Below are positions 2,245-53,932 of a DNA stretch of 64,000 nt, piece after piece. A program made the position numbers and the translations under genes. How positions within the stretch are numbered: the stretch's first letter is position 1; each line of letters begins with the position of its first letter. The notes beneath the pieces are model-generated. The model was not told where the DNA came from. It worked only from the letters and a program-made list of their open reading frames with translations, and did not search any database. This DNA is from Flavobacterium muglaense. Lineage in GTDB: Bacteria; Bacteroidota; Bacteroidia; Flavobacteriales; Flavobacteriaceae. The stretch spans positions 1 through 64,000 of the forward strand of contig NZ_JACRUK010000009.1 in the NCBI RefSeq assembly GCF_014305155.1, written 5' to 3'.

Positions 2245-3810
2245 CTATTGAATTACTTTTGGATACACTATTGGAAAAAGACTTAAATCTAATTTCTTCA
2301 ATGTCGATCCGTATTTTTCATTGATTGCTGTACTAAAAGCGTTCGCTATTAAAGCATACCCCCTAGGACTTGGATGTATCCCATCTAATGAAAAACCACC
2401 ACCTGTCACATAGGCTGAAGTAACCGTAAAACCATTAGCCACAATACCACCTGATGACAATTGCGTCATAATTGCTTTTGTATCCACAAAAGCCAACCCT
2501 TTAGCAGCTGCAGCTGCTTTAATACTCACATTATAAGCATCTGTAGCAACTTTAATTTCAGCAATTTCTGTAGGAATTAAAACATGAGCATCTTGCAAAG
2601 GATATGTAATTCCAAATTTATTCAAAGGAGAAGGCGGAGCAATACCTATACCTGAATTAATAGCAGTAGGTGCAGCGGCAATAACGGACTGAGTTGGTAA
2701 TAAAACCAAATCGGCAGCGGTAGCTTGACGCGCTTGACCAAAAACAGTACCATAAAAAGTAGCGGTTGCCAAACCTAAAGAAGGAGTAAACGCAGCAGTT
2801 AATTGTGCTGATAAATTAGGCAACGACTCATCTTTAATCAGCAATGGATTTGCTACTGTAGCAGAAAGTAAATTAATACGATCTCCAGCTCCAAAAGCAG
2901 TTAAAGCAGCTTTCAAAGGTGAATACAACTGTGCATTAAGAGCCGCTACAGTTGCTTGCCCTACAGCAAGATTTCCTGAACCCAGAACAGTCGCACTTAA
3001 AGGATTATAAGGAACTGTTTTAAAATAAGGAAGCGTACTCACATACGGTAAATTAGCAACAACACCTTTAGCTCCATTTGCTGTTAAACCAGTTACTAAA
3101 TTCGAATACACATTTGCAAAAAGAGTAGGGTCAGTAATATCACTAGAGCCATACCCACTTGCGTTTAGATTACCTGTTTGATTTACACCCACTCCACCAG
3201 AAGTAGCATAACCCAACACATCATTACCTCCAATCCATAAAGAAAAGAAAGTAGGCGTTTGCGCTAAAGCATCCGCTATAACAGTTGTTGTATTTGAAGT
3301 AGCAAATCTCGCAAAATAAGGGTTCGCAGCTCCAGTTGGCACTCCTGTAACACTCCCGTATCCTGGAGCAACTAAATGATAACTCTTAGCACCTGGCACC
3401 CCTAAATTATTAAAAGGCCCTGTAATACGAGTTGTAACCTCAGTCGTAGGCGACCCATCAACAGAAGCTGGACCTGTCCCGTTAAAATACAAACGCACAG
3501 CTGCAATAGGAGTACCTCCATAAAGCAAACCTCCAATATTATCAGACATAAGCGGAGTCTTTATCTCAGATCCTCCAGCCTCTATAAATTGCTTCGCTAA
3601 AAGATTAACATACGACCCTTCTTGACCTTTCTTGAAAAGAGCTCCATCGCTATATCCTGCAGCAAAAGAATCCCCTAAGGCGACATATTTTGTAAAACTT
3701 GCCGAGCCTGAGGTTGCCGGTACATCCGCCTGTGCAACACCAGAATCATCACTACTACATGCTACTACGGTTAACGAAACCAACAGCAGCCATTTTAAAT
3801 TTTTTATCAT
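2245..3810 (-). CDS. SGNH/GDSL-hydrolase family lipoprotein
   Basis: Predicted esterase or lipase of the SGNH superfamily, exported and lipid-anchored. From the chosen start (MIKNLKWLLLVSLTVVACSS) there is a hydrophobic signal with lipobox VVAC. An upstream in-frame Met at 3888 would add 26 residues, overlap the preceding receptor gene and spoil the signal peptide. Catalytic blocks are visible: GDSFAAG (block I Ser), GGND (block III Asn) and DGIHPSPRGY (block V Asp/His). The 521-residue length exceeds a minimal SGNH domain, and a large insert separates blocks III and V. It lies 37 bp downstream of a TonB-dependent receptor on the same strand, so the two probably form an operon handling an esterified ligand. 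The substrate cannot be read from sequence. Confidence 0.85.
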   Translation of the reverse strand: MIKNLKWLLLVSLTVVACSSDDSGVAQADVPATSGSASFTKYVALGDSFAAGYSDGALFKKGQEGSYVNLLAKQFIEAGGSEIKTPLMSDNIGGLLYGGTPIAAVRLYFNGTGPASVDGSPTTEVTTRITGPFNNLGVPGAKSYHLVAPGYGSVTGVPTGAANPYFARFATSNTTTVIADALAQTPTFFSLWIGGNDVLGYATSGGVGVNQTGNLNASGYGSSDITDPTLFANVYSNLVTGLTANGAKGVVANLPYVSTLPYFKTVPYNPLSATVLGSGNLAVGQATVAALNAQLYSPLKAALTAFGAGDRINLLSATVANPLLIKDESLPNLSAQLTAAFTPSLGLATATFYGTVFGQARQATAADLVLLPTQSVIAAAPTAINSGIGIAPPSPLNKFGITYPLQDAHVLIPTEIAEIKVATDAYNVSIKAAAAAKGLAFVDTKAIMTQLSSGGIVANGFTVTSAYVTGGGFSLDGIHPSPRGYALIANAFSTAINEKYGSTLKKLDLSLFPIVYPKVIQ

Positions 3811-8840: not shown

Positions 8841-10457
8841 TTAATTAGGTTTTGTATAATAAATTTCTAATTTCAATCTTTTTTCATCAGCTACAGTAGC
8901 CTTACCACCGTACAATATTGTCCCCAAAGGATTCATTACACTCGCTCTAGGCGCCTGAGAAATCTTTGTCGTTGCTGTTTTTAATTTACTTGAGGCTGTT
9001 GTATAAATATCTTCAGTAACAACTAAGCCCATCTTGACATTTGTAGAGTCCACGTTTTTAATCAGTCCTCTAATTTGATTTGTAACACGCACTTTGTAAG
9101 TCAAACCTCTTCCGCCGGTTACAGCTTCCTTAACGATTAGACCACCAAAAACACTTTTATCCTTCTTAGTAGTTGTACCAGTTGTACCATCATTGTAATA
9201 ATCTACAATTGGCCTATGGTTGTTATAATCGTACAAATAAATTCTATTGGGCTCAAAACTATTAACCATTGCAGCAGCATCCACGTGGAAAACCAAATTA
9301 GCCTCATTTATCAACCAACCATTTTTTCTAATGCGATCAATTTCATCAGCCACACCATTTGGACTACCCGTTAAACCATCTACGCCATATAAATCTTTAC
9401 CAAAAAGTTCTAAAATAGCTAAAGATCCTTCACCACCTTTTAAAAACAATTTCTCATCTCCATCAGTTGTATTAGGAGCAGTAGTAGCATTTGCGTAAGC
9501 GGCATTTGTATTTGTTTGATTTAACAAATTAACCGTATTCCCTAACAAATTAAGCACTATTGTTTTCTCTACACGAGTAGCATCTGTTAGTGATGTATCC
9601 TCTTTATACGTGATTGTAATTTTACCTTTTTTAAAATCCATCATCGCCATAGCGCTAGGACTACTACCTGATTTTTCTACTTTAAAAAACAATCCTCTAA
9701 AATAATTTTTGAAAACATCTGCAGTTGCTAATTTCCCAGAAGCAGCAGCGTCAATAATTTTAGTTTTAAAGAAACTTGTATTAAGATTCAAACGCATTCC
9801 CGGAGCAACTCTAGTCACCACATCTGTACCAGTTGTATTGACTGTAGTTTTATACTCGGCTGGATCAAAAAAGAAAGCATCGTTCTCTGCAGTGCTAGTA
9901 GCATCGTTTAAACGAGCGCCCACTTTTGCATTGTCAAAATCAGCATTTTGATCTGTATAAAAACTCTGAGCGGTTTGAAAACCTCCTATTGGATCCAAAT
10001 CTCTCATAAAATAACCCGATTCATAAACACTTAGTTTTATTTTAGCATCAGTTCCTCCGCTGTAGATAGAATCCAATTCATAAACATGATTGCCATCAGT
10101 ATCCGTAGATAATAATGTACTATAGTACGGAATTGTCAAAACTACACTTGCAATCTCTGGGTTATTACCAATTGTAGGATTAAGCGTTTCTAAACTAACT
10201 TGACTGGCAAAATTTGCAGTGGTTGTTCCAAATGCTGGATTATCATAAACACCTAAAGCATTTACATTTAAATTATTGGATTGAATTGGTCCTATTTTTT
10301 GATTATAAGATACCACTGCCGAAGTATATTTTTCAAAACCAAAATGGTTGTCACCAATTAAATCACTACCTATTGTATTGTAATCTTTATCACAAGAATA
10401 CAAGAAAAGAACTACAGCAACAATTAGAACTTTCTTAAAAAAAGAAGTATTATACAT
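8841..10457 (-). CDS. DUF4270 family lipoprotein
   Basis: Bacteroidota-specific DUF4270 protein of unknown biochemical role. It has a 538-residue chain with a type II signal peptide (MYNTSFFKKVLIVAVVLFLYSC, Cys22 lipidated), then the family opening DKDYNTIGSDLIGDNHF, and later an EPNRIYLYDYN segment. It sits 9 bp upstream of glmS and 20 bp downstream of the glycogen-synthase-like gene, so all three are probably on one transcript. This gene order is common in flavobacteria as far as I recall. The context hints at the cell envelope, but no function can be assigned. Confidence 0.85.
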   Translation of the reverse strand: MYNTSFFKKVLIVAVVLFLYSCDKDYNTIGSDLIGDNHFGFEKYTSAVVSYNQKIGPIQSNNLNVNALGVYDNPAFGTTTANFASQVSLETLNPTIGNNPEIASVVLTIPYYSTLLSTDTDGNHVYELDSIYSGGTDAKIKLSVYESGYFMRDLDPIGGFQTAQSFYTDQNADFDNAKVGARLNDATSTAENDAFFFDPAEYKTTVNTTGTDVVTRVAPGMRLNLNTSFFKTKIIDAAASGKLATADVFKNYFRGLFFKVEKSGSSPSAMAMMDFKKGKITITYKEDTSLTDATRVEKTIVLNLLGNTVNLLNQTNTNAAYANATTAPNTTDGDEKLFLKGGEGSLAILELFGKDLYGVDGLTGSPNGVADEIDRIRKNGWLINEANLVFHVDAAAMVNSFEPNRIYLYDYNNHRPIVDYYNDGTTGTTTKKDKSVFGGLIVKEAVTGGRGLTYKVRVTNQIRGLIKNVDSTNVKMGLVVTEDIYTTASSKLKTATTKISQAPRASVMNPLGTILYGGKATVADEKRLKLEIYYTKPN

Positions 10458-35439: not shown

Positions 35440-38400
35440 ATGAAAAAAACAATTTTAATGTTTCTACTAGTTTTCTCAGCTATTATGAACGCTCAAACTG
35501 ATAAGCAAAAAATATCAGGAAAGGTCGTTGATAATACCGGGCAAGCTATACCAAATGTAACTATCTCAGTTGATGGCAACAGTATTATTACTGATTTGGA
35601 TGGAAAATACACAGTACAAGTAAAAAGCGCTAAATCGGTTCTTAAATTTTCTTATTTAGGATTTGACACAAAATCGGTTGAAGCTGGAAAGAACAGTACA
35701 TTAAACGTGACATTATTAGAGTCAAATAACGTACTTAATGAAATTGTAGTTGTAGGATACGGAACTCAAAAGCGCTCTAGCGTAACTGGATCTGTTGCTA
35801 AATTAAAAAGCGAAAGAATCGAAAAAGCACCAGTATCTCGTTTAGACCAAGCTATCCAAGGAAAAATTGCGGGTGTGAGAGTACAAAATATTTCATCTGA
35901 AGCAGGAGCGACAACACAAATCAATATTAGAGGAATCGCCTCTATTAGCGCGGGAGCTGGACCACTTGTTGTGGTTGATGGCCAACCTATGGCTGACGGT
36001 ATGGGATCTGTAAACAACGCTGACGTAGAATCGGTTGAAGTTTTAAAAGATGCTGCATCTGCTGCTATCTACGGATCTAGAGCTGCTGGTGGGGTAATCA
36101 TGATTACTACTAAAAAAGGAAAAGAAGGTAAAACTAAATTTAAATTTAGTAACACTACAGGTATCAAAAGCGTTGCTAAAACATACGACGTAATGAGTAC
36201 TACTGACTATGTAGAACGTTTGTACGCAGAGTCAACATTAAGAATCAACGATCCATTATGGACTGGAGGAACTACACTTGCAAATACTATTGGGTCTTTG
36301 GGTAAATTCCAATCTCAATATGCAATCGAAAAAGAACTTTTGAATGGTCAAGGAACTGATTGGCAAAAAGAAGCATTAAGAACTGCTTTTTACCAAGATT
36401 TACAATTCAACGTATCTGGAGGAAGCAAGAAAAATAGTTTTTATGTTTCAAGTGGATTTCAAAAAGACGACGGTTTAATGCTAAAAAGCAACTTTCAAAA
36501 ATTAAATTTCCGATTTAAGTTCGATTCAGAATTGACAGATAAAATAAAATTAAACGTTAATTTAAATCCATCAAACACTATCACAGAAAGACCAGCAGCC
36601 AACTTTATTGATTTCGCAAGATTTCCAAGTTTTATGCCAGTGTATCACACACAAAAAACAGCTGACTATATCAATGCACAAGACCCTACAAGAAACATCA
36701 AAGTAGGTGATTTTGCAGAAGATGATGACTTCTCTGGAATCGCTTATTCAAGTATTGATCCACAAGGGAATGCTTATACTGTATCTAATAATACAAACAA
36801 CAGACCGTTTAACACTTCGAATACAAACCCTATTCGTAATTTAACGCAACAAGATGACAAAACAAACGACTTCCGTTTTCAAGGAAGCGCTGGATTGACA
36901 TTCGAACTTGCAAAAGGATTATCATTCAAAACAACACAAAGTGTTTACTTTAGAAATACAGAAAGAAAACAAACAGGTGAAACGAACGCAGCAAGATTTG
37001 GAAATCCAAATTATGCGACTTACACAAGTACACGTTTTTATGATTTCTTAACGGAAAACACGTTGAACTACAACAAATCAATTGGTAATCATGACTTCAC
37101 TGCTTTAGTAGGTGCAACGTACGAAACAAAAAACACAAAATCACTAGTTACTGCAGGAACAACATTCTCAAGCGAAAGTATCCGTAATTTAAACTATGCT
37201 ACTGTAATCTTACAGCCTGTTCAATCAGATATTACAATCAACTTAGCATCCGTATAAACAAGAGTAAACTATGCCTACAAAAACAAATACTTATTGATGG
37301 CTAGTTACCGTACAGATGGTAGCTCATTATTTGGAGTTGGTAATAAATGGGGAGGATTCCCAGCAGTATCTGCAGGATGGGTAGTATCTAAAGAAAACTT
37401 CCTAGCTAATGTAACTGCAATCAATAGACTTGCCCTTAGAGCATCTTATGGAGCTGTAGGAAATAATGGAATTGATTCATTTTTATACCAATCAACATTA
37501 AATAGTTCAAACTATGTTAGCGGAATTGGAAACGGAACGGTATCGACAGGTTTAGCTAACTTAGCTTCTGTATACAGCAATAAAGACATCACTTGGGAAA
37601 GAACATTCTCAACTAACTTAGGTTTTGACTTGTCATTATTCAAAAGCAGATTGAACTTAAACATCGATGTATTTAACTCAAATACTGAAAAACTATTACT
37701 AGAAAATTCAGCATTATTAATTACGGGATCTAGCTCGATCATTACTAATGCTGGAAGTATGAATAACAGAGGATTTGAAGTTGAATTATCTACAGTAAAC
37801 GTTAAAACGAAAGATTTTACATGGTCTACAGATTTCAATATCTCACAAGCTAAAAACAAAATCACGGAACTAGGAGATAAAACATCTTTAATTTCACCAA
37901 CAATAGATGGTAGAAATGGATTGAACAACTACGCAATTGTAGGTCAACCATTAATCAGCTACTTTGGATATAAAACAGATGGTGTATGGAATAGTACTGC
38001 CGACATTAATGCAGCTAAACTAAATGGCTTAACATCTACATTGACGGGAGACTTAGTAGAAGGTGGGTTAAAAATTGTTGATACCAACGGTGATAAAGTA
38101 ATCGATACTAAAGATCGTGTAATATTAGGAAATCCGTACCCAGACTTTACTTGGGGAATCACAAACAATTTAAGATACAAAAACCTAGATTTGAACTTTA
38201 CACTTCAAGGGGTTGTAGGTGGTGAATTAATCAATGGTGACGTTAATTACAACGAAATTAAAGAAAGAGTAACAAATTACATGGGGAACAGATGGGTAAG
38301 CCCTAGTAATCCTGGAGATGGTAAAACACCTTATTTAACAAATGGAGTTAACCCATTGTTTACTGATGCAGCTGTAGAAGACGCTACTTATTTCACATTA

Positions 38401-38625
38401 AGAGAAGTTGCTCTTGGATATAGTTTTGATGCTTCAAAACTTAAATTATCTACATTAAGACTTTCTTTGACTGGACAAAACTTATTCTTTGTAAACAACA
38501 AAGACTACAGAGGAATCAATATCGAAGCTAGAACCGCAACAAGTAGTGCATTAACTGATGGTTACCAAAGAGGTGCATTCCCAATTCAGAAAACAGTTCT
38601 ATTCGGAGTAGAAATTGGTTTCTAA
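35440..38625 (+). pseudogene. susC: SusC-like TonB-dependent receptor, interrupted by one in-frame stop
   Basis: Outer-membrane oligosaccharide importer, partner of the SusD downstream, probably for alginate oligomers. The frame runs 1,061 codons but is split by TAA at 37255-37257 into 605 residues (35440-37257) and a part with its first Met at 37294 (443 residues to 38625). Both halves are in the same frame. The second continues the family sequence without a gap (TRVNYAYKNKYLL...MASYRTDGSS), so a single substitution explains it. The N-terminal half has a signal peptide, a carboxypeptidase-like domain (ISGKVVDNTGQAIPNV), the NEIVVVGYGTQKR SusC signature and the plug (VLKDAASAAIYGSRAAGG). As written it cannot make a complete barrel without readthrough. 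Confidence 0.85.
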
Positions 38626-38705: not shown

Positions 38706-40298
38706 ATGAAAACTTACAACAAAATAAATAAACTCTTTATTTTATTTTCGATTTTTTCGCTAGCAAGTTGTTCTGATAATCTAGATGTAGATAACGTAAA
38801 TACACCAACACAAGATGCCTTTTATAAATCAGCATCAGACTTTACTGTAGGGCTTAATGGTTGTTACAGTACTTTAAGAGCACCAATCGCTTACGAATGG
38901 ATGTTAACCGAAGTACGTTCAGATAACACTTACCTTAATAACTACGGAACGACTAATCCTCAAAACTTACAAATCATCAGTAATGATGTATTTGAAGCGC
39001 CGTCATTTGACTTATTTATTGAGCAATACTGGGCAACAACTTATACAAGTATTCGTAGCATTAACGGTTTAACAGATGCACTAGGTGCTACGTACAACCA
39101 ATCTACAGGTACGATCGACTATGCTGCAACTGCGGCTACGTTCCCCTTATCTACTGCTGAAAGAAAGAGAATCGCCGGTGAAGCTTCATTTATGAGAGCG
39201 TATCACTACTTTAACCTAGTACGTACTTATGGAGGTGTGTTTTTATTAGATAAAATTGTTACACCAGATGAAGCCTTGTTACTTTCAAGATCAACCTCTG
39301 CAGATATTTATAAATTTATCATTGCCGACTTGAAAAATGCAAAAGACAATTGCACTACTGCTAAATACTTAGCTACAGCTGGTACTGGAGGAGCTGCAAC
39401 AAAATGGGCTGCAGAAGCTTTATTGGCTAAAGTATACCTTACTTTAGGACAAAAAACAGATGCTATCCCATTATTAACTGATGTCATTTCGGCAAGTGGT
39501 CACTCATTAATTACTGCTGGAACTACACCTTATGCTGATGTGTTCTCTGCAACTAACGAATTGAATGCTGAAATCCTTTTTGCAATCCGTTTCAAATCTG
39601 GATCATTAGGATATGGTAGTTCATTATCTAATTTATTCTCTAGCACAACTGACCAAAAAATTACAGGTTTGGTTTATCCTACTGGAACAAGAGGTGGATA
39701 CAACAACCCAACTCCTGAATTGTACACATCATACGCTACTAATGACACTCGAAGAACTTTTAACATCAAAACGAAGACTGCAACACCAGCATCTAGTCAA
39801 TTATTTTGGTCTGGTAAACACAACATCGCTGTTGCTAGTTTAAATGACTCAGAGCTAGATTGTCCAGTATTAAGATACAGTGATGTATTGTTGATGTATT
39901 GCGAAGCAGTAGGTGTTTACAACACAACTACATTTGCATACTTAACACAAGTACACAACAGATCCGTACCAACTGCTATAACAGCTGCAAGTGTAAGTAC
40001 TCAAGCTACCTATGAAAAAGCGGTTGCCAATGAGAGAAGATGGGAATTTGCAATGGAAAACCAAAGATGGTTTGACTTGTTGCGTTTCACCACTACAATG
40101 CCAACAGTGAATGCAAAAGCAGTTATGAAAAGTCACTTCGCATTAATGTCTACGTACTATACACAGTTTAACAACCCGTATACAACAGCACAATTAGAAG
40201 CGAAAGTAGATAATCCTAAATTTGATTTATCTCCAATTCCTAATGTGGAAATTGTTACAAATACTAAAAATCCAATTACTCAGAATACTGGTTATTAA
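38706..40298 (+). CDS. susD: SusD/RagB-family glycan-binding lipoprotein
   Basis: Cell-surface lipoprotein that caps the SusC barrel and binds glycan. The 530 residues start with a lipoprotein signal (FILFSIFSLASCSDN). A SusD-like N-terminal TPR-rich region (about 35-250; RIAGEASFMRAYHYFNLVRTYGGVFLL) and the C-terminal RagB/SusD domain (ANERRWEFAMENQRWFDLLRF) follow. It lies 80 bp after the interrupted susC and ends before a strong terminator. Together with PL7 and PL6 lyases in the locus, alginate is the likely ligand. Confidence 0.92.
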   Translation: MKTYNKINKLFILFSIFSLASCSDNLDVDNVNTPTQDAFYKSASDFTVGLNGCYSTLRAPIAYEWMLTEVRSDNTYLNNYGTTNPQNLQIISNDVFEAPSFDLFIEQYWATTYTSIRSINGLTDALGATYNQSTGTIDYAATAATFPLSTAERKRIAGEASFMRAYHYFNLVRTYGGVFLLDKIVTPDEALLLSRSTSADIYKFIIADLKNAKDNCTTAKYLATAGTGGAATKWAAEALLAKVYLTLGQKTDAIPLLTDVISASGHSLITAGTTPYADVFSATNELNAEILFAIRFKSGSLGYGSSLSNLFSSTTDQKITGLVYPTGTRGGYNNPTPELYTSYATNDTRRTFNIKTKTATPASSQLFWSGKHNIAVASLNDSELDCPVLRYSDVLLMYCEAVGVYNTTTFAYLTQVHNRSVPTAITAASVSTQATYEKAVANERRWEFAMENQRWFDLLRFTTTMPTVNAKAVMKSHFALMSTYYTQFNNPYTTAQLEAKVDNPKFDLSPIPNVEIVTNTKNPITQNTGY

Positions 40299-40492: not shown

Positions 40493-41200
40493 TTAGATAT
40501 TGTAACAGTATTCATATAATGATTTGAAATGTTTTTTCATTCTTTGTTTAGCCAATTGTGGATCTTGAGCCACTATCGCTTCATACACATCCGTATGTTC
40601 TTGAATTCGTTCCATCCCATCATTTTCATTCTTATCACATACATGGTACTTTTCAAAATTGGTGATAATCTCCGGAGTGATAATCAACATTAAATTATTG
40701 ATAGTATTATTACCACTTGCTTTGGCTATAGCCAAATGGAAAATTAAATCTTCTTGAACAGCATCTTCTCCCACAGCAGCTTTTTCAGCAAAAGCGTCTA
40801 AAGCGGCTTTAATTTGAATCAAATCTTCTTCGGTTCTTCTAGTTGCTGCCAATCGAACTGTTTTCAATTCGATAAGAATTCTAGTCTCTACAAGTGATTT
40901 AAAATCCGAAGTTCCCAAGCGGAGAATTTCGTCAATAATACCATTGATAGCTATTTTCCCAATATCAGCCACGAAGGTACCACTTTGCGGAATGGATTTT
41001 AAAATTCCGTAGAACTCTAGCTTTTGTATGGCTTCACGCACACTGCTTCTACTCGCATCAAACCTTTCAGACAACATCCTTTCAGAAGGTAATTTATCTT
41101 GTGGCTCTAAATTTTTAAAATTGATATAATCTCTAATTTGACCAATGATAGCATTGACAGACTCTTTATTCTCTTTCCTGGTAATTACCTCTAACTTCAT
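40493..41200 (-). CDS. FadR-subfamily GntR transcriptional regulator
   Basis: Ligand-responsive repressor of 235 residues. The N-terminal winged helix is at about 15-80 (LPSERMLSERFDASRSSVREAIQKLEFYGILKS), followed by an all-helical FCD ligand-binding domain (about 95-225), whose metal-site histidines include DLIFHLAIAKAS, IQEHTDVYEAI and MKKHFKSLYEY. FadR-type regulators with FCD domains often sense uronates or other hydroxy-acids and bind TGGT-N-ACCA palindromes; such sites occur upstream of susC, PL7 and the gntK-gnd operon. A broken paralog lies at 48846-49556. It is convergent with susD and upstream in transcription of nothing else obvious. Confidence 0.93.
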   Translation of the reverse strand: MKLEVITRKENKESVNAIIGQIRDYINFKNLEPQDKLPSERMLSERFDASRSSVREAIQKLEFYGILKSIPQSGTFVADIGKIAINGIIDEILRLGTSDFKSLVETRILIELKTVRLAATRRTEEDLIQIKAALDAFAEKAAVGEDAVQEDLIFHLAIAKASGNNTINNLMLIITPEIITNFEKYHVCDKNENDGMERIQEHTDVYEAIVAQDPQLAKQRMKKHFKSLYEYCYNI

Positions 41201-41315: not shown

Positions 41316-42182
41316 TTAATGAGAAACTTTCAAAGCATAAATTTTAACCGTCGCGGAGGTTCCAGGATTCTTAGATTGAAAGTAATTACCTGCTTTAAAA
41401 TAATTATCAAAAACACCCCATTTCTTGATGTTCACATCATTATAAACAAACGACTCCCCATTATTTAAGATCACCTCTAACCTACCATCAGATACTTTTA
41501 CCTCTAAAGTAAATCGATCAAAATCGACTTTTTCTTTAAAAACACGACCATCGTCATCAACCCAGGCATCAGCTGGCAACAACTCTTTTAAACTTGCTGC
41601 TGGATTTTTTAAAACTTTAGTTTTGACTTTAATCTTACCTTGATCCCAATAGATTTTTAAAATTGGAGCGGCATTATTGTCTTTTTGGCCAAGTAATTTT
41701 TGCTGCTCATCTGTCAATCTACCGTGTATTTGAGCAATAATCACTTTACTGTATTTACCCTCTTCCTCTTTAGATACATTTTGCATTCTATAAGTAGCTT
41801 CCATACGCCCCCCTTTTGCAAAGTTCCAGTTGGTGTTTTTATCTCCAATAACCATTGTTTCTCTCAACTCAGACCTAGAAAAGTGACTATTGGCCGTAGA
41901 AGTTCCAGATGGAAAGGCATAAAAAACAAGTGATTTGTCTTTTGGATCCTCATACATGTATTTCTTAGTAGCTTCATTGGAAGCAAAATCAAGAATTTCA
42001 GGATAATTTAAATCTAAGGTTTTACCGGGATGATCTGTATCTTCCTCTGGGGTTGTTAATGTCCAATGTGACAAATCAATTTTGGCTACGTTCTTGCGTT
42101 CGTTAGCAACTTGACCATAACTTGCCGTTGCAAGAGCGATCGTGCTGAGCAAAGCAATTTTAGAATAATGTACCTTCATCAT
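41316..42182 (-). CDS. Polysaccharide lyase family 7 alginate lyase
   Basis: Secreted or surface alginate lyase that cleaves alginate by beta-elimination. From MMKVHYSK the protein has 288 residues with a signal peptide (to about ASYGQ) and one PL7 jelly-roll domain. All three PL7 signature motifs are present: RSELRE ((R/S)E(L/V)R), IAQIHG (QIH, the isoleucine form linked to polyG or polyMG preference) and YFKAGNYFQ (YFKAGxYxQ) near the C-terminus. An upstream Met at 42281 is in frame, but its extension is not a signal sequence and contains the putative operator. ATG at 42179 is equally possible. No lipobox is evident. Confidence 0.93.
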   Translation of the reverse strand: MMKVHYSKIALLSTIALATASYGQVANERKNVAKIDLSHWTLTTPEEDTDHPGKTLDLNYPEILDFASNEATKKYMYEDPKDKSLVFYAFPSGTSTANSHFSRSELRETMVIGDKNTNWNFAKGGRMEATYRMQNVSKEEEGKYSKVIIAQIHGRLTDEQQKLLGQKDNNAAPILKIYWDQGKIKVKTKVLKNPAASLKELLPADAWVDDDGRVFKEKVDFDRFTLEVKVSDGRLEVILNNGESFVYNDVNIKKWGVFDNYFKAGNYFQSKNPGTSATVKIYALKVSH

Positions 42183-42214
42183 AATCGTTTTGATTAATTT
42201 TTTGTTTCGAATAA

Positions 42215-42232
42215 ACCAAATTGGAAAACCAA
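42215..42232. promoter_or_regulatory. Putative GntR operator upstream of PL7
   Basis: ACCAAATTGG (42215-42224) overlaps TTGGAAAACCAA (42221-42232), a variant of the TTGGT-N2-ACCAA palindrome seen upstream of susC and gntK-gnd. It lies about 35-50 bp upstream of the lyase start. A nearby ACTAAATCGAT (42241-42251) also recurs next to the susC operator (35364-35374). Confidence 0.5.
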
Positions 42233-42326
42233 ATATAGAAACTAAATCGATTGAAAAAACATAAGCTATCACAAAAATCAAGCCTCAAAAATGATCCTAC
42301 AAAGCAGCTTTTTGTAAATCTATCGT

Positions 42327-45819: not shown

Positions 45820-47061
45820 TTAATCTTCTTCAACAAAATCAGCAACAGTAGGTCTAAGGAAAGTAAGTTGAACCACTAGAGCCACTAAAACAGCGCCCGC
45901 CATAATGCCAAAGTCATGACCAAGATGGCCTTCGTCTGCTGATTTTCCTAATAAATCAGTGATAAAAGCACCTGCTAGAATTCCGGTTAAATTCATAAAT
46001 CCAAAAGCGGTTGCGCGGTGTTTTGGCGCAACAAACTGACAAAGAATAGGCATGTTATTGACATCAAACATTCCGAAACCGAAACCAAAGCAACAAGCAG
46101 CCATTATAATATGAGTTAACGAGTGTCCGAAACCAAGCAATAGCAAGGCAGGAATAGTCAAGGCCAGGCCTAAAGAAGAAGTGTAAATTCGCCCTCTGAG
46201 GTGTTTTCGTGCCCATTTGTCGGATAGAATTCCACCAATTATAACACCAAACAAAGATGAAACGGCTGTAGTAATCGTCGATAGTGGACCGGCTTGGGCC
46301 ATATCAATGTGCAGTGTACTAGCAAAAAGTGTTGGCAACCAGTTTTTTGTTCCCCAACCTGGTAAAAATGGAACGGCAAAATAAAATAAGATGATCCAAT
46401 AGGAAATGTTGCTAAACAAGACGCTAAAGACTTTCATTATTGGCACCTTCTTTTCTACAATTTTATCTTTTGCAAGTTCGGCTTTGGAACGTTTGAATTC
46501 TCTTAAAAATAAGATCAATACAAAGGAATATACTACTCCTATGAGGCCAAATAACTGAAAGGTAAACTTCCAGTTCCAATGCGCTGCAATACTAGCGCCG
46601 AACCCACCTAGCGCTTGCCCCATGAACAAACCAGTAAGGTGAATCCCGATGGCAAGTGACCTTGTTTTATTCGAATGAAAGTCGGCTATTAATGACAGAG
46701 CAGCCGGAATATACATGGCTTCACTGACTCCCATTATGGCACGAAGCCAGTAGAGTTGTTGAAAAGTTTCGGCATACCCCATGGCAATAGTGACCGAGGA
46801 CCATACAAATAAACTGATGACAATGAGCCATTTTCTATTCAATCTATCAGCAATAAGACCTGATACGGGACTCATAAAGGCGTACACCCACATGAAAACC
46901 GCCATCAATCTACCAAAGTTTTCGGCGGTTTCTAATTCTGCGAAATCGACCATCATAGCTGGTTTCATTGTAGCCAGCATTTGCCTGTCCATATAATTTA
47001 ATAAGGCAACCACCCAAAGTAAAGCGACAAGAACCCAAGGATAAAATTTAGAATTTTTCAT
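45820..47061 (-). CDS. MFS transporter, probable uronate carrier
   Basis: Twelve-helix major-facilitator protein of 413 residues. The first loop has SGLIADRLNRKWLI (MFS signature G-x-x-x-D-R), and a second such motif is IIGGILSDKWARKHLRGR. The opening WVVALLNYMDRQML resembles the anion:cation symporter (ACS, ExuT/UhpC-like) branch. As last gene of the part-two operon with PL6, an SDR reductase and an RbsD/FucU protein, it probably imports unsaturated uronate monomers across the inner membrane. It lies 69 bp downstream of the RbsD/FucU gene. Confidence 0.88.
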   Translation of the reverse strand: MKNSKFYPWVLVALLWVVALLNYMDRQMLATMKPAMMVDFAELETAENFGRLMAVFMWVYAFMSPVSGLIADRLNRKWLIVISLFVWSSVTIAMGYAETFQQLYWLRAIMGVSEAMYIPAALSLIADFHSNKTRSLAIGIHLTGLFMGQALGGFGASIAAHWNWKFTFQLFGLIGVVYSFVLILFLREFKRSKAELAKDKIVEKKVPIMKVFSVLFSNISYWIILFYFAVPFLPGWGTKNWLPTLFASTLHIDMAQAGPLSTITTAVSSLFGVIIGGILSDKWARKHLRGRIYTSSLGLALTIPALLLLGFGHSLTHIIMAACCFGFGFGMFDVNNMPILCQFVAPKHRATAFGFMNLTGILAGAFITDLLGKSADEGHLGHDFGIMAGAVLVALVVQLTFLRPTVADFVEED

Positions 47062-47130: not shown

Positions 47131-47565
47131 TCAAAAACTACTTTCTTCGGCCATTTTTACAACACCTACTATAAGAATTAAATTGGCAAAGCGACGTTGT
47201 TCTCCAGTTTGAATAATTAATGTCGTAGATGGTTCTCTGATTTTGTCATAGAAAGCCCAGCGTTCCATCTCGTCCCAACTGACGTCTCCGAGCAAGTTTT
47301 TGTAAGCAAGGTGTATGTCGGCATTGGCTTCGGCAGGTTTCTCCATAACGATTGCCCCTTGAAAAGGACAGACTTCTAATAATCCTTCCAAGACCGTAAC
47401 TGCGTCTAATAATCCTGGTCGAAAATTGAGATGTACTGTAGTAGAATTGGGGCCTGTCATGGCACCCACAGGTAAATTACCATCTGCAATAACTACTTGG
47501 GCAAAGTGCCCAGAACGCGCCAAAGCTTCTAATATAGTTGGGTGTATTACTGCGGTCTTTAACAT
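47131..47565 (-). CDS. RbsD/FucU-family protein (possible sugar mutarotase)
   Basis: A 144-residue protein of the RbsD/FucU fold, which interconverts anomers of ribose or fucose in known members. Key features are HPTILEALARSGHFAQVVIADGNLPVG, keeping the catalytic His of the GH motif (GHFAQ rather than GHGD), and the C-terminal YDKIREPSTTLIIQTGEQRRFANLILIVGVV. It lies between an SDR reductase and an MFS transporter in an alginate operon that has no KdgF cupin, so it could act on unsaturated uronates. That is inference from position only. Confidence 0.8.
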   Translation of the reverse strand: MLKTAVIHPTILEALARSGHFAQVVIADGNLPVGAMTGPNSTTVHLNFRPGLLDAVTVLEGLLEVCPFQGAIVMEKPAEANADIHLAYKNLLGDVSWDEMERWAFYDKIREPSTTLIIQTGEQRRFANLILIVGVVKMAEESSF

Positions 47566-47835: not shown

Positions 47836-48606
47836 CTACATATTATAGACTCCGCCATTAATATCCAGAGTAGCCCCAGTTATAAAACCGTCATACTCGG
47901 ACGCTAGGTATACAACTGCTCGCGCTACATCATCAGCATTACCTGCTCGCTGGATAGGAATGCCTGCGACTGTAGCAGCTGCGGACTCTGCCGTTGTATG
48001 TGTATTATGAAAAGAAGTACCCAGAATAAGTCCTGGAGCAACAGCATTCACACGAGTGCCTTGAGGTCCTAATTCTGATGCAAGTGCTCTTGTAAAAGTT
48101 AAAATCGCTCCTTTGCTTGTTGAATATACCAGTGAGCCCGGATGACCGCCTTTACGCCCTGCAAGTGACGCCAGATTCACAATACTGCTATTGCTGTTTT
48201 TGGCGAGATAAGGCGCTGCCGCACGTGTGACCAACATCATGGACGTAAGGTTGATATCCATGACTTTATGCCAGAACTCTATTTCCATTTCGTTCAGCAT
48301 TTTTCGGGCAACTAGCGAACCTGCATTGTTAATTAGGACATCTAGACTTCCTAAAGCATTTACTGTTTTTTCAATTAATTCATTTGCATCGGCTTCTTGG
48401 GTTAAATCACCTGCTATTGCCAAGGCTTTTTGCCCTTTGCTACTTGCATATTCCACCAATTCGTTTGCGGTCGCTGCACTAGAAAAATAATGTATGGCAA
48501 CATTGGCACCGCTATCTATAAAGTGTCTCGTTATTGTTTCACCGATACCCTGCGCACCAGCAGTGATGAGGATATTTTTTCCGGTTAATTTTGTATTGTT
48601 ATTCAT
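47836..48606 (-). CDS. SDR-family oxidoreductase, probable DEH reductase
   Basis: Short-chain dehydrogenase of 256 residues: NAD(P)-binding ITAGAQGIGE, NNAG, catalytic Ser (NLASLAG) and YSTSK (Tyr/Lys), and the C-terminal DGFITGATLDINGG. In alginate loci such SDRs reduce 4-deoxy-L-erythro-5-hexoseulose uronate to 2-keto-3-deoxygluconate, and the adjacent PL6, PL7 and MFS genes make that role likely. Cofactor choice is not obvious from sequence. Part of the leftward operon. Confidence 0.85.
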   Translation of the reverse strand: MNNNTKLTGKNILITAGAQGIGETITRHFIDSGANVAIHYFSSAATANELVEYASSKGQKALAIAGDLTQEADANELIEKTVNALGSLDVLINNAGSLVARKMLNEMEIEFWHKVMDINLTSMMLVTRAAAPYLAKNSNSSIVNLASLAGRKGGHPGSLVYSTSKGAILTFTRALASELGPQGTRVNAVAPGLILGTSFHNTHTTAESAAATVAGIPIQRAGNADDVARAVVYLASEYDGFITGATLDINGGVYNM

Positions 48607-48845: not shown

Positions 48846-49556
48846 CTAACTAATGTCGCAGTACTCGTATAGTAACTTGAAATGTTCTTTCATTCTTTTT
48901 TTGGCCAATTTTGGATTTTGATCCCGAATGGCTTCGTAGATTTCTGTGTGCTCCTTGATTCTCAAATCATCTAGCTGGTTGTATTCTACATGGTACTTCT
49001 TAAAATCTACAATAATTTGCGGTGTGATGGCAATCATAATTTGGTTCATGGTAATATTATCACTGGCTTTGGCTATAGCCAAATGAAATAATAAATCTTC
49101 CTACACGGCATCTTCACCAGACAGTATCTTTTTTTCATGTGCATCCAAGGCTTTTTTAATATTTGCTAAGCCTTCGTTTGTGCGTTTTTTTGCCGCCGAC
49201 TTCACCGCTTTTAATTCTAATACAATTCTAGTTTCAACTAAAGATTTAAAACTGGGTACTCCAAGATTTAAAATATCTTCAATCATTCCGTTCATAGCAA
49301 TGCTACCAATATTGGGAATAAAAGTCCCGCTTTGAGGCAGTGATTGTAAGATTCCATAGGATTCTAATTTCAAAATGGCCGTATGAATACTTCTTCTGCT
49401 TACTCCAAATTTCTCGGCTAATTCTCGCTCCGGTGGCAATCGATCACCTGGTTGTAAATTTTTCTTGTTTATTAATTCATTGATTTGACTAATGATGGTA
49501 TTAACACGCGCAGTTATTTCTAAATTTTCGTTTTTCGAAAGGATATCTAAGTTCAT
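48846..49556 (-). pseudogene. FadR-subfamily GntR regulator, interrupted by one in-frame stop
   Basis: A paralog of the regulator at 40493-41200. The frame reads from 49556 to 48846 but is cut by TAG at 49101-49103 (reading GEDAV-stop-EDLLFHLAIAKAS; the intact paralog has GEDAVQEDLIFHLAIAKAS). A single CAG to TAG change fits, because the paralog has Gln at that place. The N-terminal part (151 residues) keeps the winged helix (LPPERELAEKFGVSRRSIHTAI). The remaining 78-residue piece holds most of the FCD metal-site region. The truncated product could still bind DNA but lacks ligand sensing. Confidence 0.85.
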
Positions 49557-49643: not shown

Positions 49644-51998
49644 TTATTTAGTGCTTTTTTGATCTATAATTCCTAAGTCTAGTTTATCAGTTCCTTTGCC
49701 TTTTAGTGGCGAATCATCCAATAACTTAAAAGTTTCACTATCATATGAAGGTTTCAATTCCCAAAGATTTTCTACAGTGTATTTTTGATCTCCCGTAACT
49801 TCAAGTTTACCGGACTCGTAGAAATCATTATTTAGAATGTTAACTACTGGCTCTCCTACTACTAAATGCATATTTACCGGCTTGGTTTTATTAAAAATAT
49901 TATTTTCAATAGCAATAACTTGGACTCCGTATAAAGAAATGGCCGCTCCATATTTATTTCTAGTTCCAAAACCTACATGGTCTAAAACATTGTGATCCAC
50001 ATCTAAGAAAGGACCAAAAGTACTTTCGTCTGTTCCTCCTCTGTAAATTCGTATAGCACTACCTTGTACGTCTTTCAGGATATTGTTTTTCATTATAAAA
50101 TGCTCCACATTATAAGCTCCAATATCATCGGTTTCGGTATCTAATGCGGCGATGTGACCAGTAATATTCTTGAATTTTGAATTCTGAATACTAATTGTAT
50201 CGGCAAAGGTTCCCTTAGCCACTCGTAGCACATCAAAAGAATGATTTACGATCAAATTTTCGAAAACACATTTATCGATAAACAACTTATAGTTTTCGAT
50301 CATCGAATTCTTGCTGGTAGTAATCACTGAATTTGCAGCATAATCTGGCGAACTCGCTCCATCAAATTTTAAATTATCTAAGGACATACTTCCGCCATTT
50401 TGAATTTCGAAAGCCATCATTCTTTCGAATAAAATAGTTGCTTTTTCTGCTCCCGAAGTTTTAAAAGTCAATGGATGTTTGATCTCAACCACTTTGGTAA
50501 ACACATATTCCCCACCCGATTGAAGTTCAATAATATCACCCGGCTGAGAATTTGTAGCAGCATCAAATACCGTGTTGATTCCTGGTTTTGCAACAATGGT
50601 TTTTCCCGAATTTAAAGCGATGGTTTTATCTGCTTTAGCGTACCAAGTAGTTCCCGTATTGTCTTTAGTGGCAATAAGAGCACTAATTTCGATTTTAGTT
50701 TTAATTTTATTCGAAACAGGAATTAAAAACCCCTGCTTGTTTTTTACCAATTTCATGTCGGCCGTTGTGAAACCGTTTTTGAAAGTAGTGGAGGTGTTTT
50801 TACTTAAAATATTATCTTTAAAAGTGATACCGCTAATATCATCATAGGCCGTAAAAATATCTTTCTGCACATCATTGTAAAATATATTCCCTGACATTTC
50901 AGAGTTTTTTGGCGGCATACTTCTTTCGGCATCGCTACCGGCACACAGCTGAATATAGTCGCAATTAACAAAAGTATTGTTGTTTACTTTCGCTTTTATC
51001 ACTGGCACATAACGATTTGGTGGCGAATTTGGAACCCCATTCATCATGACAAAAGCACCTCTAAATCGGTAACCCGCCAATCCTATATGGTAATTATTGA
51101 TGACCGTTTGCGCTTCATTGATTACGCGAACACCACCGGTACTTGCCAAACCATTTCCAATAAACACATTACCATCAACCAAAGTTTCATTACCATGACG
51201 GATGGTTAAAGTTCCTGTACATTCAAAAAACATATTGTATTTATAGGTGTTCTGACAGGATTTATTGGAGATAATTTCATGTTCACCATCACATCTGTCA
51301 AAATAATTAGACTCCACCACCGTTTTAGAATTTTCCAATGCATTATGACTTGTACCGATTCTTAAGGTTTCGCCCCCATTATTTCCATAAGTAGGTCGTG
51401 GCCCAAAATAGTTGTGGTCTATTTTATGATTGTTTTCGATACTTCCTTTGGTATCCAAACCAACAATCATGGTTACTCCTAAATTCTTTTTACCTTCAAT
51501 ATGATTGTGATCTATTCGATTGTTTTTTCCATAAATAGCAACCCAATAATCTTGCAACTGGCGTTCTGGATTGTTATAATTATCGATTACACACTCCGTT
51601 AAACGGCAATTATTAGCTAGTTCCTTTTTATTTTTTCGAAAAGAAATCACCTCGTTGGATGGTGTGTATCCGTTTTTAAAAACCAAACCTTTTACAATTA
51701 AATATTCTCCCGCAATTTGAAGATTGGAACGACCTTCCAAAGTAACTTTCCCAGCTTCTTCTACCGTTAAAGTGATCGGTTGTGCCGCCGTACCTTTTCC
51801 TTCAAATAGAAGTTCGGTATTTTTCCAAACGCCATTCGCTAGTACAATAACAGCTCCTGGTTTCGCGTTGGCAACGGCTTTGTTAAATTCAGCAGCGTTT
51901 TTAACTAAAATATCAGACTCCTTATTGTTTGCTTTCCATGAAGTCATCCCTACGATAATGACTATTGCTATTAAAAAACGACTAAGTAAATTTTTCAT
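49644..51998 (-). CDS. Polysaccharide lyase family 6 alginate lyase
   Basis: Exported alginate lyase of 784 residues with two parallel beta-helix regions. After the signal segment (about 1-22), the PL6 catalytic domain (about 30-420) carries the expected catalytic lysine in ISNKSC (Lys246) and arginine in TIRHGN (Arg267), plus RPTYGNNGGETLRIG. The second beta-helix (about 455-780; VDHNVLDHVGFGTRNKYGAA) resembles the non-catalytic C-terminal domain of two-domain PL6 enzymes. It lies 56 bp downstream of the gntK-gnd fusion. Likely acts in the periplasm or on the surface, releasing oligo- or monouronates. Confidence 0.92.
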   Translation of the reverse strand: MKNLLSRFLIAIVIIVGMTSWKANNKESDILVKNAAEFNKAVANAKPGAVIVLANGVWKNTELLFEGKGTAAQPITLTVEEAGKVTLEGRSNLQIAGEYLIVKGLVFKNGYTPSNEVISFRKNKKELANNCRLTECVIDNYNNPERQLQDYWVAIYGKNNRIDHNHIEGKKNLGVTMIVGLDTKGSIENNHKIDHNYFGPRPTYGNNGGETLRIGTSHNALENSKTVVESNYFDRCDGEHEIISNKSCQNTYKYNMFFECTGTLTIRHGNETLVDGNVFIGNGLASTGGVRVINEAQTVINNYHIGLAGYRFRGAFVMMNGVPNSPPNRYVPVIKAKVNNNTFVNCDYIQLCAGSDAERSMPPKNSEMSGNIFYNDVQKDIFTAYDDISGITFKDNILSKNTSTTFKNGFTTADMKLVKNKQGFLIPVSNKIKTKIEISALIATKDNTGTTWYAKADKTIALNSGKTIVAKPGINTVFDAATNSQPGDIIELQSGGEYVFTKVVEIKHPLTFKTSGAEKATILFERMMAFEIQNGGSMSLDNLKFDGASSPDYAANSVITTSKNSMIENYKLFIDKCVFENLIVNHSFDVLRVAKGTFADTISIQNSKFKNITGHIAALDTETDDIGAYNVEHFIMKNNILKDVQGSAIRIYRGGTDESTFGPFLDVDHNVLDHVGFGTRNKYGAAISLYGVQVIAIENNIFNKTKPVNMHLVVGEPVVNILNNDFYESGKLEVTGDQKYTVENLWELKPSYDSETFKLLDDSPLKGKGTDKLDLGIIDQKSTK

Positions 51999-52054: not shown

Positions 52055-53932
52055 TTACCAATTCGTATGATGAAATGTTCCTGACTCATCATCTGTTCGT
52101 TGATAGGTATGTGCGCCAAAATAATCGCGTTGGGCTTGTATGATATTTGCTGGTGAATTTGCGGTTGTATATCCATTGAAAAAATTAACAGCGTCACTCA
52201 AACAGGGAGCTGCTAATTCATTTAAAACACAATTTGCAACTACTGTGTTTATCGATGGTTTCAATAATTTGACCTGATCAATAATGGTTTTATGTTTCAA
52301 AATAGCATCCTCTTCCTTTAAAACCCCAATGAGTTCCACCATAAAGTCCGATCGAATGATGCAGCCATTTGTCCAGATTCTAGCTATTTCACTTAAGTTT
52401 AAATTCCACTTATACGCTTTCCCAGCATCAGCAATTAATTTAAATCCTTGATAATGATTTACAATTCTAGCAAACTGATAGGCTTCTAAAACTTTTTGAT
52501 GGTCTACAACCAATTCCTGATTTTCAGTAGTAAAATTGATGCTTGCTTGAATTCGGTCTTCTTTATAAAACGAGTTAAAACGGGCAAATAATGCAGTCGC
52601 AATCATACTGCTTGGCACTCCTAGTTGGGCCGTGGCAATGGTTGCCCAGTTTCCAGTTCCCTTATTTCCTGCTTTGTCGACAATTTTATTGACTAACCAA
52701 TCGTCTCCTTCTTTTTTTCGAAGAATAGCAATCGTGATTTCTAGTAAATAACTATTCGCTGTAGGTTGCCAAGATGCTAAAATGTCGGCAATTTTATCAG
52801 GAGCAGTTCCCATTCGATGAAAAATACTGTAGACCTCGGCCAACAATTGCATTTCTACATACTCTACACCATTATGAACCATTTTTACAAAATGACCACT
52901 ACCTTCTTCACCTATATAGGTACAACAAGGCAAGCCGTTCGCATCTTTGGCTGCGATTTTTTCTAAATAAGGTTGAACCAAATTGTAAATTTCTTTGTTT
53001 CCACCAGGCATAATCGAAGGTCCTTTTAGTGCGCCTTCTTCACCACCAGAAACACCAACACCAATAAAATGGATGTTTTTATTTTTTAATAGATCGTGAC
53101 GTTCTTTTGTGTCTAAATAATTGGAGTTTCCGCCATCAATCAAGATATCGCCATCAGTTAAAAACGGAACCAAATCGGCAATAACGCTATCAGTAGTTTT
53201 TCCTGCATTGACCATAAGCATGATTCTTCTAGGGGTTTGCAAGGAATTTGCAAAGGCTTCTAAATCAGAAAAAGCTTTTGCCGTTTGTAATTCCTCATGA
53301 TCGTTCTTGAAATTGGCAGCAACTGATTCCTCGACCCCAGCCACTTCTCTATTAAATATAGAAATATTGAATCCTTTTTGAGCTAAGTTTCTACTCAAAC
53401 TCTTTCCCATTACTCCCAATCCAAATAATCCAAATTCTGATTTCATTTCCATTTTCTTGGCTATTATTTCAACAATATCTTCGGGTTTTAAATCAATCTT
53501 AATTTCCAGTGCATTTAAGGGTTCTTCTAAAATATCAAACTGTGATTGCAATAAATCAGATTGCATATAATGGTTCTCTCTTTTATTTATTCGATCTAAA
53601 ATTTGGTCAAAACTTCCAGCCAAATGAATCCATTTTGTTTGATTTTGAATATCAGTACTTAAAATGTCTCTGTAGGATTGTTTTAAAGCCGAACAAACAA
53701 TAACACAACTGTTACTTTCTAGAGTTTCTTTGGCCAATTTATTGAGTGTAACCAACCAGCCGTAGCGGTCTTCATCATTCAGTGGCACGCCATTACTCAT
53801 TTTGTCAACATTGGATTGCGGATGAAAATCATCACCATCAAAAAAAGTAACTTTTAACCTTTTAGACAGCAATTGTCCAACCGTGCTCTTTCCGCAGCCA
53901 GATACACCCATTATAAAGATTACATTATTCAT
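52055..53932 (-). CDS. Bifunctional gluconokinase / 6-phosphogluconate dehydrogenase
   Basis: One 625-residue chain joins two consecutive enzymes. Residues 1 to about 160 are gluconokinase: P-loop GVSGCGKSTVGQ, DGDDFHPQSNVDKMSNG, and VIVCSALKQSYRD. Residues 163-625 are decarboxylating 6-phosphogluconate dehydrogenase: FGLFGLGVMGKSLSRN, VSGGEEGALKGPSIMPGG and KMVHNGVEY. Gluconate would thus become ribulose-5-phosphate and NADPH in one protein. It is the first gene of the alginate part-two operon and is preceded by two tandem TTGGTGAACCAA sites. Alginate breakdown normally goes via KDG, not gluconate, so its metabolic role here is unclear; NADPH supply for the SDR is one idea. Confidence 0.93.
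   Translation of the reverse strand: MNNVIFIMGVSGCGKSTVGQLLSKRLKVTFFDGDDFHPQSNVDKMSNGVPLNDEDRYGWLVTLNKLAKETLESNSCVIVCSALKQSYRDILSTDIQNQTKWIHLAGSFDQILDRINKRENHYMQSDLLQSQFDILEEPLNALEIKIDLKPEDIVEIIAKKMEMKSEFGLFGLGVMGKSLSRNLAQKGFNISIFNREVAGVEESVAANFKNDHEELQTAKAFSDLEAFANSLQTPRRIMLMVNAGKTTDSVIADLVPFLTDGDILIDGGNSNYLDTKERHDLLKNKNIHFIGVGVSGGEEGALKGPSIMPGGNKEIYNLVQPYLEKIAAKDANGLPCCTYIGEEGSGHFVKMVHNGVEYVEMQLLAEVYSIFHRMGTAPDKIADILASWQPTANSYLLEITIAILRKKEGDDWLVNKIVDKAGNKGTGNWATIATAQLGVPSSMIATALFARFNSFYKEDRIQASINFTTENQELVVDHQKVLEAYQFARIVNHYQGFKLIADAGKAYKWNLNLSEIARIWTNGCIIRSDFMVELIGVLKEEDAILKHKTIIDQVKLLKPSINTVVANCVLNELAAPCLSDAVNFFNGYTTANSPANIIQAQRDYFGAHTYQRTDDESGTFHHTNW

Follow-up and report, generated by a model that had tools for sequence, protein, structure and literature searches.

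Alginate catabolism is normally drawn as a single route that passes through the unsaturated uronate and DEH, and proteins of the RbsD/FucU family are mutarotases that form ring-shaped oligomers. The section of one review that deals with L-guluronate and D-mannuronate catabolism gives only the DEH route for alginate (PMC6353982). In Flavobacterium sp. UMI-01 an alginate cluster has been described with FlRed, FlKin, FlAld and a KdgF-like protein (PMC4306948, PMC5334617); with FlRed located by an antibody peptide printed in PMC8563752, the order of this cluster reads Eda, KdgK, FlRed, MFS, GntR, PL7, KdgF, PL17, other genes, DMP19-like and MetG. A gene annotated as rbsD is drawn in another setting, the L-glucose/L-galactose pathway of Luteolibacter LG18, in the cluster of lguG, the gene for 5-keto-L-gluconate/D-tagaturonate epimerase (PMC12632266). 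The enzymes and substrates of that cluster are unlike those of the locus described here, and the part of that paper cited here gives its rbsD no function. Within open-licence PMC, no paper was found that pairs RbsD with 'alginate lyase', and none that names a 'mannuronate reductase'; searches combining ribose pyranase, RbsD or fucose mutarotase with alginate returned no title on alginate catabolism among the matches listed.

The locus considered here lies in a window (the whole stretch of Flavobacterium muglaense DNA that was analysed, 64,000 nucleotides) and comprises the features listed in Table 1. Like the UMI-01 cluster, the window carries GntR-PL7, DMP19 and MetG in identical order. Unlike that cluster, it lacks KdgF, PL17, FlRed, KdgK and Eda; the FlRed query finds in it only the SDR. 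The gene next to PL7 is DMP19 in the window, after about 105 bp, whereas KdgF and PL17 come next in UMI-01. UMI-01 itself holds an RbsD that is 94% identical to that of the window, on a different contig from its alginate cluster.

The RbsD/FucU protein and its locus

Table 1. Features of the window (coordinates are positions of the whole stretch)
Feature	Position	Strand	Basis
SusC-type TonB receptor, in-frame TAA at 37255-37257	35440-38625	plus	sequence and SusD neighbour, no profile
SusD-type glycan-binding lipoprotein	38706-40298	plus	ORF, sequence
GntR/FadR-type regulator, intact	40493-41200	minus	ORF, profile
PL7 alginate lyase	41316-42281	minus	ORF, profile
MFS permease, directly downstream of RbsD	45820-47061	minus	profile; matches other loci
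RbsD/FucU-family protein, GHFAQ subfamily, proposed uronate mutarotase	47131-47565	minus	144 aa, Pfam, alignments, model
SDR oxidoreductase, usual RbsD partner, 36% identical to DEH reductase FlRed	47836-48606	minus	profile and structure matches, loci
GntR/FadR-type regulator, shortened by in-frame TAG (49101-49103)	49101-49556	minus	ORF, profile
PL6-type lyase (Pfam Chondroitinase B) with C-terminal DUF4957 match	49644-51998	minus	profile
Gluconokinase - 6-phosphogluconate dehydrogenase (GntK-Gnd) fusion	52055-53932	minus	TIGR01313, TIGR00873

The plus strand of the rbsD interval is interrupted by stops, and the open reading frame lies on the minus strand. Its product was described at first as an RbsD/FucU protein of mutarotase fold, placed between an SDR and an MFS gene, and both the placement and the fold hold. 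Pfam RbsD_FucU (PF05025) spans the whole protein (98 bits against a cut-off of 25, residues 1-136 on profile positions 1-138), which is the sole PF05025 match in a profile search of its genome. An AlphaFold model (mean pLDDT 82.1) matched 21 chains at E <= 0.001, every one a FucU/RbsD entry, among them 2ob5, titled a putative sugar-binding protein; against solved FucU/RbsD structures the model gave E values of 1.6e-9 to 5.3e-7 and Z of 16.9-18.7, with an rmsd of 1.9-2.9 over 127-131 residues.

The fold, the length and several conserved residues are those of E. coli FucU and RbsD, His20, Asp28, Glu122 and Asn128 being common to all three proteins in the alignment. Unlike them, to which it is respectively 28% and 24% identical, the window protein reads GHFAQ where FucU and RbsD have GHGD and GHTD, so that the His is kept and the Asp of GHGD becomes Ala, as had been noted in the preliminary description. 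GHF(A/S)Q occurs in nearly all members of the subfamily: in the survey of loci given below (best 80 of 81), 62 of the 68 close homologues read SGHFAQ and all 12 distant ones SGHFSQ, and GHFAQ is thus a subfamily hallmark rather than a local quirk. At a position where FucU and RbsD of E. coli both have Tyr, 40 of 40 aligned members have Phe, and a further homologue (L028) has Tyr. The subfamily also differs in carrying an Arg pair (R124/R125) after TGEQ, directly before the aromatic residue and the Asn shared by the family; R125 is invariant in the 40 aligned sequences, R124 is conserved at >= 90%, and the pair is a possible grip for a carboxylate. The protein falls below the NCBIfam equivalog cut-offs for D-ribose pyranase RbsD (PRK11797, 42.4 against 93 bits) and for L-fucose mutarotase FucU (PRK15420, 31.5 against 141 bits).

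Upstream of the SDR, and on the same strand as rbsD, lie the truncated GntR gene, the PL6-type lyase, here called an alginate lyase from its context, and the GntK-Gnd fusion, which scores 175 bits on TIGR01313 (cut-off 113.75) and 514 on TIGR00873 (cut-off 426.7). The MFS permease is matched at 88% in the UMI-01 locus and at 92% in that of F. fluviatile. Past its premature stop the shortened regulator still resembles the intact paralogue, and because both this gene and the SusC gene carry in-frame stops the locus may be decaying. The strain is known here from its genes alone, and these do not imply growth on alginate.

The preliminary description had found no KdgF in the operon, and indeed the ORF list gives no cupin among the operon ORFs; the search that it proposed for a kdgF homologue elsewhere in the genome likewise found none. 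A profile search of the genome (117 contigs, stated completeness 100%) gives six Cupin_2 matches, only one of which is found by a KdgF-like query (E <= 0.001), at 35% identity over 12-114 of 125 residues. This 161-aa protein begins, judged by eye, with a signal-peptide-like stretch, is encoded beside another gene family, and matches at E 1e-5 structure 7zyb, titled only Cupin, which we take to be the KdgF of Bacteroides eggerthii. It was considered as a hidden KdgF and rejected: elsewhere, genomes have cupins of 34-39% identity in addition to a true KdgF, so that it is probably a paralogue. That the search works is seen from the recovery of KdgF by the same query in all seven of a first set of other genomes and in 123 of a set of 397.

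FlRed was not found in the genome at E <= 1e-60, and KdgK has a single match there, of 23% identity. Nor was PL17 found at E <= 0.001 in a genome search run without a positive control; read against the window, the PL17 queries, which matched 18 of 20 control loci, also found nothing. The absence of KDPG aldolase (Eda) covers the window, that of KdgF, FlRed and PL17 the whole genome. Comparison with the partly syntenic UMI-01 cluster, in which all three are present, suggests that KdgF, PL17 and FlRed, the DEH reductase, were probably lost from this genome. The DEH route appears to be lost, and lyases, SDR, RbsD and GntK-Gnd remain.

RbsD and KdgF across genomes

The absence of KdgF beside RbsD had suggested that RbsD might stand in its place. 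The two proteins share an alginate setting, and either could conceivably open the ring of a uronate; unlike RbsD, KdgF belongs to the Cupin_2 family, and in most genomes searched the two coexist. Among 397 genomes of the family, KdgF was called in 123 (E <= 1e-25), RbsD in 12 (95 bits or more) and both in 10. The genes do not exclude each other; they are positively associated, with KdgF in 10 of 12 RbsD genomes versus 113 of 385 others (p = 2e-4 by Fisher's test, which here, as for the SDR below, ignores phylogeny). The two RbsD genomes without KdgF are that of the window and one that is 68% complete. Weaker PF05025 matches in eight further genomes were left uncounted. Some Flavobacteriaceae (L021-L023 and similar) have another PF05025 group that scores lower (27-35 bits); one of its members (L022_02) is 193 aa long and has a lipoprotein-like start.

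Individual searches of 56 RbsD genomes, some of them also within the 397, found KdgF in 45 (7/7 and 38/49), at 47% identity or more. All 41 Bacteroidota genomes with a named RbsD locus carry it (7/7 and 34/34), and none of the 11 of 49 genomes without a detected KdgF (E <= 1e-8) belongs to the Bacteroidota. Within 10 kb of each other, KdgF and RbsD are found in 5 of 68 close loci (L078, L082, L083, L086 and L103; best 80 of 81). The partner SDR occurs in 42 of the 397 genomes (E <= 1e-100), 41 of which hold KdgF, the sole exception being the genome of the window. Since most genomes with close relatives of this RbsD hold both genes, replacement of KdgF as a general rule is rejected, and the missing KdgF of one genome should not be read as replacement. 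A KdgF-like role may apply in four Paraglaciecola (L064, L094, L099 and L111), because lyases lie beside RbsD there and KdgF was not detected.

Neighbourhoods of RbsD and its partner SDR

A collection of genomes was scanned with two peptide patterns, MERWAFY and MLKT[PAQ]VIH, and relatives without both patterns would be missed, the scan having relied on them. The counts of RbsD loci in this and the following section refer to 80 loci, the best 80 of 81; several end at contig ends, so that absences from them are lower bounds on presence. Sixty-eight loci hold a close RbsD (77% identity or more), in hosts that include Flavobacteriaceae, Marinifilaceae, Puniceicoccaceae, Alteromonadales, Leucothrix, Granulosicoccus and others, Pseudomonadota among them. 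The other 12 hold a distant one (56-62%), in Verrucomicrobia, Lentisphaeria, Pirellulaceae and one MAG named Thalassocella. When 395 genomes were drawn for spread across the phylum, including 20 others of the genus, only the window's own genome was found, and among 109 pattern matches no RbsD relative lay in a viral contig. A tree of SDR and RbsD places Granulosicoccus, Leucothrix and a Phycisphaera MAG among the Bacteroidota, with 28 of 57 inner branches open, which makes horizontal transfer of the pair only likely.

The usual neighbour is the SDR (>= 45% identity): 57 of the 68 close loci have it upstream of rbsD, on the same strand and at a gap of 19-268 bp; RbsD stands without it in 11, in one of which (L126) the contig starts inside rbsD. 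Across the 397 family genomes the SDR is present in 11 of 12 with RbsD versus 31 of 385 others (p = 6e-11), and 31 of the 42 SDR genomes lack RbsD. More distant SDRs occur near RbsD at 57% in an Oceanospirillaceae MAG (L102) and at 27-32% in L104, L109 and L092, so that the partner can differ. In two Lentisphaeria loci (L120, RbsD at 10001; L123, RbsD at 3662) an RbsD of 56-59% lies two genes upstream of an SDR of 58-60%, with unrelated genes around. On such sequence comparisons the pairing may be older than its link to alginate.

It is improbable that the SDR is just the DEH reductase, because FlRed is a different SDR (76-83% identity) that coexists with it in 40 of 42 SDR genomes, being missing in that of the window and in G129. 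Relatives of FlRed share 80-88% identity (PMC4306948), versus 36% between FlRed and the partner SDR, and an identity of the two was rejected. On NCBIfam models the SDR scores 214.1 bits for glucose 1-dehydrogenase (cut-off 215) and passes the FabG model marginally (222.4 against 222). It matches structures 4w7i (titled DEH reductase A1-R') and 3afm (titled carbonyl reductase, and which we take to be A1-R), neither as its best match.

The surroundings differ with the presence of lyases. Alginate lyases were found in 32 of 68 close loci, and the other 36 have none within the fetched stretch. Among lyase-bearing loci 19 of 32 carry GntK and/or Gnd, 8 carry ManD or UxuA, and 23 carry either; gluconate or mannonate enzymes occur in 0 of 36 close loci without lyases (p = 3e-11). 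The ManD of L053 scores 668 bits against an NCBIfam equivalog cut-off of 550, the UxuA of L064 501.5 against 199.55, and the GntK of L111 passes the GntK/IdnK subfamily cut-off; the ManD/UxuA of L101 is only a 29% match, and UxuA lies on the opposite strand in L064, L099 and L111. FlRed and Eda were found in 0 of 68 close loci and KdgK in one. As these loci carry gluconate and mannonate enzymes and lack both FlRed and KDPG aldolase, a saturated uronate is a likelier substrate than the unsaturated one proposed earlier.

The survey of neighbours of homologues elsewhere, which the preliminary description had called for, found no fucose or ribose operon in the 80 loci. With E. coli queries (tblastn, E <= 1e-8), fucO/A/P/I/K occur in 0 of 80, as do rbsB and rbsK; a pair of ABC genes like rbsA and rbsC (43-45%) is present only in L109, with weaker rbsA matches in four more. 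A role in fucose or ribose metabolism was accordingly rejected, the equivalog cut-offs having been missed as well.

For comparison, 20 KdgF loci were chosen by the strength of their KdgF match from genomes without this RbsD (20 of the 123; in two of these, G236 and G314, PF05025 is matched weakly, under the 95-bit line). Seven of these loci contain the SDR, and all their Nramp-like (6) and Gnd (4) genes fall among those seven, with neither gene in the 13 loci that lack the SDR; GntK is matched only weakly (30-33%) in L157 and in L153, the latter one of the 13 loci without the SDR, with a match of 33%. A set of 27 RbsD-free SDR loci (20 and 7), covering 27 of the 31 SDR-positive, RbsD-negative genomes, has Gnd in 12 and Nramp-like genes in 15 within six genes of the SDR, which directly follows KdgF in 6. 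In L177, Gnd, the Nramp-like gene and the SDR adjoin, and there is no lyase within six genes. Gnd and the Nramp-like gene therefore track the SDR, to which RbsD is an optional addition.

The canonical metal motif of Nramp proteins is DPGN. In the Nramp-family transporter of these alginate loci (PF01566, for example L060:6021-7295), GTGS stands at that site in 18 of 24 members of its cluster; the other six did not match the GTGS pattern, at least one of them being truncated. The protein possibly imports a uronate or an aldonate rather than a metal, a suggestion drawn from the altered motif and counted against by its score on the NCBI Nramp_1 model (85.7 against a cut-off of 50 bits).

A proposed role of the RbsD-SDR pair

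We propose, with a probability of roughly 0.45, that RbsD is a cytosolic mutarotase that feeds saturated uronates from alginate to the adjacent SDR, beside the KdgF/FlRed route. Uronates are mostly closed rings, and with a mutarotase more of the open aldehyde would become available. RbsD would thus speed ring opening or anomer exchange of the uronic acid, and the SDR would act on the aldehyde, reducing L-guluronate at C1 to D-gluconate, which the GntK-Gnd fusion would carry into the pentose phosphate pathway. In relatives the SDR would convert D-mannuronate to D-mannonate, for dehydration to KDG by ManD or UxuA. By our own derivation of the stereochemistry, reduction at C1 gives D-gluconate from L-guluronate and D-mannonate from D-mannuronate, so that one uronate reductase would explain both enzyme sets. 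Such a branch would run parallel to the KdgF-FlRed-KdgK-Eda route for the unsaturated uronate and would not replace it. What is observed is the fold, the subfamily, the link to the SDR, the gluconate and mannonate enzymes near lyases and the coexistence with KdgF and FlRed; activity as a mutarotase, the substrate, the direction of the SDR and the product are proposals. Certain PL7 lyases are reported to yield saturated M and G monomers (PMC5809466); the flux may be small, since such monomers should derive only from the original non-reducing chain ends. Several points count against the proposal: it is built on sequence context and a structural model, RbsD is optional, with Gnd and Nramp-like genes tracking the SDR rather than RbsD, 11 of 68 close loci have RbsD and not this SDR, 9 of 32 lyase loci have no gluconate or mannonate gene, the locus of the window may be decaying, and the position of the SDR directly after KdgF in some RbsD-free loci suits a DEH-related role.

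This last arrangement, seen in 6 of 27 loci, belongs with an alternative that we consider unlikely, in which the pair serves the unsaturated route, RbsD converting hemiacetal or hydrate forms of DEH, or opening the unsaturated ring in the manner of KdgF, and the SDR acting as a second DEH reductase. The lyases near 32 of 68 loci, the matches of the SDR to 4w7i and 3afm and the genomes (that of the window and four Paraglaciecola) with RbsD and lyases and no detected KdgF would all fit it. Against it count the coexistence of KdgF with RbsD in 10 of 12 and 45 of 56 genomes and of FlRed with the SDR in 40 of 42, as well as the lack of FlRed and Eda in all 68 loci and the gluconate or mannonate enzymes of 23 of the 32 lyase-bearing ones.

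Quite improbable, in our view, is a second alternative, which makes the SDR an aldose 1-dehydrogenase of glucose or mannose type that oxidises a neutral algal-polysaccharide sugar to its aldonate, with RbsD supplying the right anomer and GntK-Gnd or ManD taking the aldonate. The near miss of the glucose 1-dehydrogenase cut-off and the marginal pass on the FabG model speak for it, and GntK-Gnd would suit a gluconate product, but alginate lyases accompany these enzymes in 23 of 23 RbsD loci, no neutral sugar comes from alginate itself, and the guluronate/mannuronate route covers the gluconate and mannonate branches by one chemistry. Least probable is that RbsD is an unspecialised mutarotase or sugar-binding protein, with neither a fixed substrate nor a dedicated alginate role, kept beside the SDR by inheritance and transfer. 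This would account for the 36 of 68 close loci without lyases and for the pair lying among housekeeping genes in Maribacter, Zobellia uliginosa and Kriegella EG-1, but sits poorly with 78-94% identity across 68 loci that reach into Pseudomonadota and with KdgF in each of the 41 named-locus Bacteroidota genomes.

A mutarotase feeding saturated uronates to the SDR remains our preferred reading of RbsD. A wider proposal, rather doubtful as it stands, is that a branch for saturated monomers moves horizontally among marine bacteria of several phyla, beside the unsaturated KdgF/FlRed route. It would be made up of a uronate mutarotase from a new RbsD/FucU subfamily, an SDR acting as uronate-1-reductase on both L-guluronate and D-mannuronate, and a non-canonical Nramp-family importer. 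If true, this conserved multi-phylum cassette would constitute a second branch of alginate catabolism, and it would add a uronate to the substrates, ribose and fucose, for which this mutarotase family is known.
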